Shown here piece after piece: positions 6,864 through 61,748 of a stretch of 64,000 bases of DNA (position 1 is the first letter of the stretch; each line of letters begins with the position of its first letter). Both the position numbers and the translations under genes were made by a program. The DNA comes from Paenibacillus harenae DSM 16969 (GTDB lineage Bacteria; Bacillota; Bacilli; Paenibacillales; Paenibacillaceae), in NCBI RefSeq assembly GCF_000422465.1, contig NZ_KE383842.1, forward strand, positions 1,571,845 to 1,635,844, in the 5' to 3' direction. The notes beneath the pieces are model-generated. The model did not search any database, was not told the origin of the DNA, and saw nothing but the letters and a program-made list of their open reading frames with translations.

Positions 6864-7190
6864 TAAAACAAAAATAAAGCCTCATCCCTATGAGAAGGGA
6901 CGAGGCTTAGTCGCGTTACCACCCTTGTTCCGCGCGCTTGCAATGACATGGCAAGCTTGTGCATGCAGACGCTTAAATCAAGCCCTGCCTATCGCGGCAC
7001 CTTAGTCGCGAGCCAAACAGCTCGCGTTCCCTGTAACGGGGGACATCCGTCAGCGCTTATTGCCGCATTCGCAGGTTCGGCGCCGCTTCTCGGAGAGGAT
7101 ATTCCGCAATGGCACACACGCCGGGCTTTCAGCAATCGCCGGCTCTCTGGGGAGTGGTCCAAGAACGTACTTGTTCTCGTCAACGAAGTT
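6864..7190 (-). promoter_or_regulatory. T-box leader, isoleucine-specific, upstream of ileS
   Basis: Read on the minus strand, the leader shows a Stem I with an AGTA turn (GAACAAGTACGTTC) and apical elements (GATTGCTGAAAGCC). The specifier loop GGAATATCCTC has the Ile codon ATC at 7098-7100. The T-box core AAGGGTGGTAACGCG lies at 6912-6926, followed by an intrinsic terminator. Uncharged tRNA-Ile would pair with the specifier and the core and prevent termination, raising ileS expression on isoleucine shortage. The element identity is clear; exact ends are approximate. Confidence 0.95.
6865..6908 (-). terminator. T-box-controlled terminator before ileS
   Basis: The stem AAGCCTCGTCCC / GGGATGAGGCTT (6876-6908) is followed on the minus strand by TTTATTTTTGTTTT. 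Its 5' arm overlaps the T-box antiterminator, as in known T-box leaders. Confidence 0.92.
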
Positions 7191-7214
7191 TCAATTATCA
7201 CTTGATTACTATTA

Positions 7215-59753: not shown

Positions 59754-61508
59754 CTATACCTTAAATACGGACGCGCTTTCCTTCAGTTCTTTCGACGATA
59801 ACGTCAGCTGTTCGGCCAGCGAGCGCAACTCATCGGAGATGTCATATTGCTTGCCGGACAGCCCGCTCATTAGTTCCATTTTACCGTTAACGTCGGAAGA
59901 AGTCTGAAGCAGCTTATCGACGGCGGAAACGATATGCGTCATCCCCTTCGTAATCTCGCTGATGGCGGTAGAAATCTCGCTTACCTGATCTGACAGCACC
60001 GAGCTTTGGGACTCAAGGGTTTGGAAGGTCGCGCTTGCCGTTTCCGAAGCTTGGCGCGTCGAATGGATGACATTCGAGAAGCTTCCGATTGTCCGGCTGC
60101 TAGCTTCCACATCGCCCTGGATCAACATCAGCTCTTTCGTAATTTGCTTGGAAATGGTGTCCGTCTGGCTGGAAAGCTTACGGATTTCATCCGCTACTAC
60201 GGCAAAGCCGCGGCCGTGCTCTCCCGCTCTTGCCGATTCGATTGAAGCATTGAGCGACAAAAGGTTAGTCTGCGTGTTCAAATCTTGAATGCCTGCCAGA
60301 AACTTCGATACATTGCCGTAACGGTCGTTCATCGTTTCGAACACTTCCGTCAGCTTGGCAAATTGATGGGCGGTTTCGTTCACCATCCGAACGACGCCCG
60401 CCATATGCTCCGAGCCGTTCCGGGAGGAATTCTTCATATGTTGCATATCAGTATTAATGTATTCGCTTGAAGCCGCGATTTCCTGCGAACTTGCCGAAAT
60501 TTGCTCCGTAACCGCAGAGATCGACGATGCATCGTCGTACTGGGACAGCAGCACCTGTCTGCCAAGATCGACCTGCCCCCTTACTTCCTCCGACGCCTGG
60601 CGGTTGCTGCCGATCATCGCATCCATATTCCGGGATACATGCAGAACGGTCTCGCTGACCGCCAAGGTGGATTTAATCGTGTCGCGAAGATTATTCCCCA
60701 TATCGGCCAACGCCAGGTCGATCTGTCCGAACTCATCCGAACGGGCCAGACGCTCTTGGCTTGTAAAATCATTCCCGCCATACGCGTTGATTCGTCTTGT
60801 AATGCCGGCAAGTCCCGTCTTGATCGACTGCGTGACGCCAAAAATCATTAAGGCCGGAAGGACGGCTAACAGGATTACGTTAATGAGCACGATGACATTG
60901 GCACTTGTAACGCTGTGATTCAGATCTTCCCTCGAGACGTTCGAATCCCCGGTCAAACGACTATCGATCGTTTCGTTCGCAAAACTTAGAATGATCGTAT
61001 ATGTACTAATTAAAGTCGATACCCGCTGCGATTTCTCTTCGGCACGCAGACCGTCCACATCCGTATCCGTCCTGATCAGGTTATCGAGCGCAAGCCGGAT
61101 CACGTTAACCTGGTTAGCATACAGCGGCCCGTCTTCCTCAGCAGGATATTTCCGATCCAATACGAGCATTTGCTTTTCCAGCTCATCGATTTGCGGCGGA
61201 AGCGTTCTAATCTCTTCCATAATGGCTTCCGCATCGCTCTCGCCGTTCTCGATCGCATCCACCATCCGCAGGATTGAATTCAGAATGACATTCGAAATCT
61301 CACGATAATTTCGTTCAATATTCGTCAACTCCTGCGTGTCTTTCACCGCCTTGGCGACCGACAGATTTTGCACATAAATGAAAATACCTGCACCCACATT
61401 GAAAATCGTAATAATCGCTGTAATCACAAGCAATCTCGTCGTAATCTTTCTCATGTTCATCTTCTTCATGAGGCCAACCATTTTCTCCAAACCAAACTTC
61501 TGAACCAC
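59754..61508 (-). CDS. Methyl-accepting chemotaxis protein under c-di-GMP riboswitch control
   Basis: A transmembrane chemoreceptor, 584 residues. A basic N-terminus precedes TM1 (about residues 24-46) and a ~160-residue extracellular, mostly helical sensor domain (four-helix-bundle type). TM2 (about 205-228, [20 protein letters not shown]) is followed by a HAMP-like segment and the coiled-coil signalling domain. Its tip [20 protein letters not shown] is the CheA/CheW-binding hairpin. The GTG at 61508 follows GAGGAGAG. No che or flagellar gene is nearby. The 5' leader carries a c-di-GMP-I riboswitch and terminator, so the gene responds to the sessile/motile second messenger. Confidence 0.94.
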
Positions 61509-61532
61509 AATTTCTCTCTCCTCTGTTTTCTG

Positions 61533-61573
61533 AAAAAAACAAAAAAGCTATCCAGCCACAGGAGGCGGACAGC
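61533..61573 (-). terminator. Riboswitch-linked terminator before the chemoreceptor
   Basis: The stem GCTGTCCG / TGGATAGC (61566-61573, 61547-61554) is followed by TTTTTTGTTTTTTTC on the minus strand, 25 bp before the GTG. It is the likely expression platform of the aptamer just upstream. Confidence 0.85.
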
Positions 61574-61584
61574 ATTAAACCGTT

Positions 61585-61680
61585 CAAAACCTTCCGGCGG
61601 TCTGGCAGCCATAGCAGTAACACCTTAGGCCCATAACTTTGCGTCCTTTCCTTTCGGAAAGTTTGCCTTTTCCAGTATGT
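61585..61680 (-). promoter_or_regulatory. Cyclic di-GMP-I riboswitch (GEMM-I)
   Basis: On the minus strand, in order: GGCAAAC (61661-61667), a GAAA tetraloop in CCGAAAGG, GGACGCAAAG (61637-61646), GGCCTAA (61625-61631) and ATGGCTGCCAG (61602-61612). These are the conserved elements of the GEMM-I aptamer, including the tetraloop and its receptor. The aptamer ends just before the terminator at 61533-61573. Ends are approximate. Confidence 0.93.
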
Positions 61681-61748
61681 CTATATTTCGTATGATCCAA
61701 TTAAGTATAGGATATTTCAACCATTTTGTATACCCCTTAAGCCCTATA

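Follow-up and report, generated by a model that had tools for sequence, protein, structure and literature searches.

The leader of a methyl-accepting chemotaxis protein (MCP) gene in Paenibacillus harenae DSM 16969 carries a c-di-GMP-I (GEMM-I) aptamer followed by an intrinsic terminator, and we consider it probable that this leader works as a transcriptional OFF switch. The assignment of direction is based on topology and on comparison of orthologous leaders; the topological argument is good, whereas folding of the related leaders gives a mixed picture. All features described below for the window (the whole stretch of 64 000 nucleotides that was analysed) are on its minus strand.

In the mechanism we propose, at low c-di-GMP the aptamer would release its 3′ strand (61605-61590), which, as the polymerase advances, would pair with the loop and the 3′ arm of the terminator; the linker would meanwhile occupy the terminator 5′ arm, and with the terminator blocked the MCP mRNA would be transcribed. 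With c-di-GMP abundant, the ligand-bound aptamer would retain its 3′ strand, the terminator would form and transcription would stop at the U-tract. Motile cells (low c-di-GMP) would in this way produce the chemoreceptor, and sessile cells would stop producing it.

Aptamer, leader and chemoreceptor gene

When the whole window was searched with covariance models, c-di-GMP-I-GGC (RF03167) was placed at 61676-61592 with 65.6 bits (gathering score 59, E-value 2.9e-13, model positions 1-80 of 80). A whole-genome scan gave 76 bits for RF01051 at the same place (cut-off 35); which of the two models comes out ahead depends on the E-value (7.5e-15 vs 1.0e-14, the latter in the whole-genome scan). Both Rfam families are thus matched at full length and above their cut-offs, with no difference found. 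The leader is well conserved but unremarkable within this established class of riboswitches, and binding of c-di-GMP is predicted.

Within the aptamer (61592-61676), the ligand pocket GGC is located at 61665-61667, with both G invariant in 29/29 leaders (alignment A2); we take these bases to be G20/G21/C22 in Vc2 numbering. The P2 hairpin with its GAAA tetraloop (61646-61661) was delineated from the covariance alignment. The apical part of P3 (61609-61629), recognized in the sequence, has the form CCTAAG ... TATGG, presumably a tetraloop-receptor-like motif.

Covariation in orthologous leaders extends to the helices of both aptamer and terminator. In the covariation test, made with 28 distinct leaders and 500 shuffles, 97.2% of 836 cells were paired (93.8 in shuffles; reached by 0/500), eight pairs changed on both sides (4.2 in shuffles; eight reached by 2/500), cells changed on both sides numbered 36 (8.8 in shuffles), and the covariation score was 0.205 (0.138 in shuffles; reached by 0/500). 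The count of pair types in the 28 leaders was not above that of shuffles (22 vs 21.6, 282/500). Slid registers, used as a control, left 25-54% of cells paired. For helices 1-4 (P1, P2 with its GNRA loop, and P3) the fraction of paired cells was 97.6 to 98.4%, and for the terminator (helix 5) 95.3%. Both-side changes in helices 1-4 were found in six pairs, all from P2 and P3 and none from P1; in P2 (helix 3) four of the six pairs changed on both sides.

Upstream of the aptamer, a -35-like hexamer TATACA (61727-61732) stands 17 nt from a -10-like hexamer TATACT (61704-61709). This pair (61732-61704) resembles a sigma-A promoter, from which we infer a transcription start near 61697. By eye, -35-like hexamers at the same spacing could be seen in most orthologous leaders (unrecognised in G038), as could -10 hexamers of the forms TATACT, TATAAT or TAAACT. 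A sigma-D (motility) promoter was also looked for by eye upstream of the leader and gave no convincing match, while the sigma-A-like pair with its 17-nt spacing fits.

The 3′ end of the aptamer, including the P1 3′ strand, is formed by the strand CCAGACCGCCGGAAGG (61590-61605, strand A), for which antiterminator pairing is predicted. It is followed by a linker (61574-61589), whose 3′ part is able to pair with the terminator 5′ arm, by the terminator stem-loop (61547-61573; -15.6 kcal/mol folded alone) and by a U-tract (61533-61546) interrupted by one G. A Shine-Dalgarno-like AGAGGAGAG at 61516-61524 was assigned by eye in the alignment. In one orthologous leader (G048, locus L085) the terminator stem looks broken, with a local fold of -1.8 kcal/mol; aptamer and MCP are kept there.

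The tail TTTTTCAG (61530-61537) could base-pair with CTGGAAAA, the 5′ strand of the aptamer, to which it is complementary. The CAG that closes the U-tract is kept in 26/29 leaders (altered in G025, G012 and G024), and the mean number of predicted pairs in the tail helix was 5.1 vs 0.8 for shuffled tails, with higher values in 18/29 leaders; in the window's own leader, in the construct used, tail pairing was not raised (0.2 vs 0.3 shuffled). We rejected the tail helix as an antiterminator because the tail is transcribed past the expected termination point.

The MCP gene (59754-61508, 584 aa) starts with a GTG at 61508 that by eye aligns with the position where close orthologues have their ATG; its product matches the MCPsignal domain PF00015 with 110.6 bits over 34.6 (E-value 1e-31). 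The preliminary description had read 61533-61680 as a GEMM-I RNA with an intrinsic terminator in front of a chemoreceptor gene; this reading is borne out by Rfam scores above cut-off and by the PF00015 match of the frame that the GTG opens. The range given there takes in aptamer, terminator and U-tract.

In the N-terminal 320 aa of the window MCP, Pfam HAMP gave no match at E-value ≤1; it matched 9/13 rows of alignment A1 (best 0.00088). A model of these 320 aa built from 13 sequences (pLDDT 65.3) has long helices at 22-88, 103-120, 130-146 and 156-243, and is compatible with a helical-bundle sensor. The structure of the whole MCP predicted from a single sequence (pLDDT 49) was set aside. The gene is flanked upstream by a DUF1836 gene and then a CNNM/CBS transporter gene, and downstream by genes of a histidine kinase, a response regulator, a TMEM164-family protein and a nitroreductase. 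A T-box leader (RF00230, 97.7 bits vs cut-off 93) is situated far from the aptamer, at 6893-7192 (-); these two are the sole Rfam matches in the window above gathering score.

Direction of control

The aptamer (to 61592) and the terminator (from 61573) share no base, so that both are able to coexist, as in the Cd1 riboswitch. Cd1, an OFF switch, is described as having an aptamer and a terminator that coexist and an antiterminator formed by strands T, A and H, while in the ON switch pilM the terminator needs the aptamer 3′ strand A (PMC9262584). A pilM-like arrangement was rejected for the window, where the terminator includes no aptamer strand. In the predicted competing fold, the terminator loop together with the 3′ arm (61552-61565) is taken up by 61605-61590, and linker bases 61582-61579 pair with the terminator 5′ arm (61570-61573); as modelled, this is the Cd1 scheme. 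The outermost pairs of the predicted antiterminator reach the U-tract (61610-61606 with 61550-61546), so the antiterminator might itself act as a terminator.

Equilibrium folding takes no account of ligand, tertiary contacts or kinetics; by this method, the terminator probability in the window was 0.995 with the aptamer forced and 0.007 unforced. The preliminary description could not settle the direction by eye and named structure prediction of bound and free forms as a check. The comparison does give a switch in the window; it does not give one in 17/28 leaders, where the terminator forms in both states. With the aptamer forced, the probability was ≥0.80 in 28/29 leaders, the exception being G048; among those 28, the unforced value was <0.15 in nine (G025 included), 0.3-0.4 in two and ≥0.63 in 17, giving a fold switch in 11/28. 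The unforced value exceeded the forced one in none of the 29 leaders, a result that is partly built in, there being no base common to the two elements.

As the antiterminator register differs between lineages, we used permutation of lineages, which rests on six of them, instead of column-wise covariation. The outcome was modest: pairing of the 3′ strand with the terminator apex averaged -13.6 within the own lineage vs -12.0 permuted, and 11/720 permutations, the true one included, were as good. Pairing with the own lineage was clearest in lineages B and D and moderate in A, where the apex scored -16.4 with the lineage C strand vs -16.7 with its own; for lineage C (seven genomes) and for G013 the permutation test gave no support. 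The pairing stood out weakly from that of letter-shuffled strands: 24/200 shuffles matched the antiterminator pairing of the window. Six of the 29 leaders (G040, G034, G002, G012, G047 and G024) were at least two standard deviations below their own shuffles, and in 6/29 the pairing lay above the shuffle mean.

An ON switch, in which bound c-di-GMP would keep the terminator from forming and abundant c-di-GMP would mean production of the receptor, seems unlikely to us, though it has a published parallel. The Bc1 riboswitch located before mcpE in the Bacillus cereus group is reported to have turned on transcription of a reporter in B. subtilis, and its terminators to have been unfolded with c-di-GMP in SHAPE experiments (PMC11218506). 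The reported ON behaviour in the reporter, together with unchanged McpE in the host, is the strongest published reason for caution on the direction here. Against an ON switch stand the terminator made without any aptamer strand, the absence of any leader (0/29) in which forcing the aptamer lowers the terminator probability, and the leader of G025, with its decayed aptamer: it keeps the terminator and an open MCP frame, and an ON switch would silence this gene.

It is also improbable that the terminator serves mainly as a constitutive attenuator and as the terminator of the upstream gene, with little effect of the ligand in vivo. Such a role would agree with the dominance of the terminator in both states in the 17/28 leaders, with the account that Bc1 hardly altered McpE in its host (PMC11218506), and with two genomes, G003 and G046, which keep the terminator behind DUF1836 with promoter and aptamer gone and the MCP absent or a short remnant. 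Yet 28/29 leaders have kept the aptamer, with helices that are conserved and covary, and the 14/29 units situated away from DUF1836 keep the aptamer and, G048 excepted, the terminator.

cGAMP variants of these RNAs are marked by an A at pocket base 20, and here this base is G, not A, in 29/29 leaders. The ligand is hardly expected to be another cyclic dinucleotide (such as 3′,3′-cGAMP) in place of c-di-GMP: cGAMP-sensing variants are reported among GEMM-I RNAs (PMC7266159) and the GGC sub-family has its own name in Rfam, but RF01051 scores 76 bits at the aptamer and the genome encodes GGDEF and EAL domains.

Conservation and loss of the aptamer-MCP unit

A close MCP homologue (E-value ≤1e-100) was found in 29/51 genomes of the genus, and 28 of these 29 have an aptamer scoring above the Rfam cut-off directly upstream, G025 being the exception; by eye, the order aptamer-linker-terminator is recognisable in all 29 leaders. 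The MCP-riboswitch unit adjoins the DUF1836 gene in 15/29 genomes and is located elsewhere in 14/29, which indicates that the association of riboswitch with MCP holds across different genomic surroundings. At 12 of the 14 loci not beside DUF1836, tRNA genes are nearby. Relatives of the MCP N-terminal part were found at 21 named loci, all in Paenibacillus records except two labelled Bacillus sp.

Beyond the genus, a profile search with an MCP threshold of 1e-40 covered the family, represented by 295 genomes taken from a larger group. We found the MCP in 32 of the 295 genomes, eight of the 32 being outside the genus. A c-di-GMP-I aptamer was present upstream in 3/3 homologues of genus g10 and absent upstream in 5/5 more distant homologues (g2, g13, g14).

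In 17 genomes a DUF1836 gene occurs without an MCP at 1e-100. We examined five such loci (L038, L045, L050, L053 and L055) and observed no Rfam aptamer (0/5) within 1500 bases on each side. According to our own leader model, the terminator persists right behind DUF1836 in G003 and G046; of these two, G046 keeps the short MCP remnant. These solo terminators are located at L038 1452-1521 (-) and at L050 2256-2331 (+), the latter with the remnant.

The leader of G025 (P. sinopodophylli; L075 3288-3423 (-)) gave no GEMM-I match at E-values up to 10. This genome keeps the open MCP frame, the promoter and the terminator; our own leader model, built with G025 included, still aligns to the leader, in which pocket, tetraloop and P3 are decayed or rewritten. 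In comparison with its near relative G008, the aptamer differs at 22/73 positions and the antiterminator strand plus linker at 0/30 (Fisher p 0.0003); differences amounted to 1/28 in the terminator, 15/100 in the promoter region, and 159/600 and 177/900 in the MCP gene. When G008 was compared with G000, G030, G031, G017 and G032, 8 to 11 of 31-33 positions differed in the linker part and 14 to 20 of 71 in the aptamer; in these five comparisons, the linker part changes at about the pace of the aptamer or faster. Recent recombination could be the source of the stretch identical in G025 and G008.

A switch that is ON in its ligand-free state would keep working without an aptamer, so the pattern in G025 is what one would expect for a switch stuck ON; with a ligand-free state that is OFF, loss of the aptamer would silence the gene. 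One could speculate that the G025 leader is a natural ex-riboswitch, either locked ON or descended to answer another signal, but we regard this reading as very doubtful. If true, it would offer a direct view of a riboswitch losing or changing its ligand with the expression platform kept.

Other c-di-GMP loci and known systems

The whole-genome scan (6.97 Mb) found six c-di-GMP-I aptamers, and domain searches found 10 MCPsignal, 11 GGDEF, 6 EAL and two CheW-domain matches; enzymes of c-di-GMP metabolism are therefore present in the genome. The five aptamers other than that of the window precede genes of a CheX-family phosphatase, a pyridoxal-dependent decarboxylase, a transglutaminase, a VWA/TIG protein and a protein without Pfam match.

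A second MCP gene (574 aa) begins within the last 20 bases of the decarboxylase gene (L155 4396-2711 and 2730-1006 (-)), so this second receptor is probably co-transcribed behind the decarboxylase aptamer. With a c-di-GMP-I aptamer and a terminator in front of the pair (L155 1006-4593 (-), contig C8), the two genes likely constitute an operon under c-di-GMP control, and at least two of the ten MCPsignal loci are probably behind c-di-GMP-I aptamers. The aptamer of the cheX homologue is located at L001 1444-1585 (-), also on C8; by eye, the P1 3′ strand CCGAAATG of this leader is perfectly complementary to CATTTCGG within the terminator apex, which looks like the antiterminator design in its plainest form.

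The preliminary description had inferred that c-di-GMP sets expression of a single receptor, independent of any che operon. Separation from the che operon is upheld, as both CheW-domain matches are at C1:1367051-1367879, about 264 kb from the MCP. The restriction to a single receptor finds no support: aptamers also precede the cheX homologue and the decarboxylase gene that overlaps the second MCP gene, and control of chemotaxis by c-di-GMP-I RNAs is therefore not confined to one receptor.

The aptamer in front of the transglutaminase gene (L004 1502-1613 (+), contig C14) is near an SSU rRNA gene. By eye, no terminator was seen there, and a Shine-Dalgarno-like stretch directly follows P1. Many relatives have a pair of aptamers roughly 125-160 nt apart.

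While general understanding of c-di-GMP-I riboswitches is unchanged by the case of the window, it adds a conserved, lineage-wide example of c-di-GMP most likely governing how much of a chemoreceptor, and not of flagella, is made. Together with the cheX homologue and the second MCP operon behind aptamers, it suggests that the composition of the chemotaxis array may be tuned by the sessile/motile signal. The 29 leaders with their one natural aptamer loss, joined by two terminator-only loci, form a handy set for studying the evolution of OFF expression platforms.

Among the open-licence PMC papers listed, none stood out as dealing with an MCP riboswitch of Paenibacillus. A c-di-GMP-I riboswitch before an MCP gene is already known from Bc1-mcpE, where, as described in PMC11218506 for 155 genomes of the B. 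cereus group, Bc1 stands in front of mcpE in 98.7%, is ON in the B. subtilis reporter and leaves McpE unchanged in the host. The two systems are alike in having a c-di-GMP-I aptamer, intrinsic termination, a downstream MCP gene and a promoter and 5′ UTR of their own. They differ in that Bc1 is reported with two terminators 28 bp apart and as an ON switch with combined effects on transcription and translation (PMC11218506), whereas the leader in the window has one terminator, belongs to another genus and is predicted to be OFF. The similarity to Cd1, the riboswitch of flgB in Clostridioides difficile, is in the platform, as both have an aptamer and a terminator that can coexist and an antiterminator (predicted for the window) made of the aptamer 3′ strand and terminator strands (PMC9262584), and in the motility-related target (PMC11477304). 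Unlike the window leader, with its chemoreceptor gene and predicted direction, Cd1 controls a flagellar operon and its direction is reported as measured.
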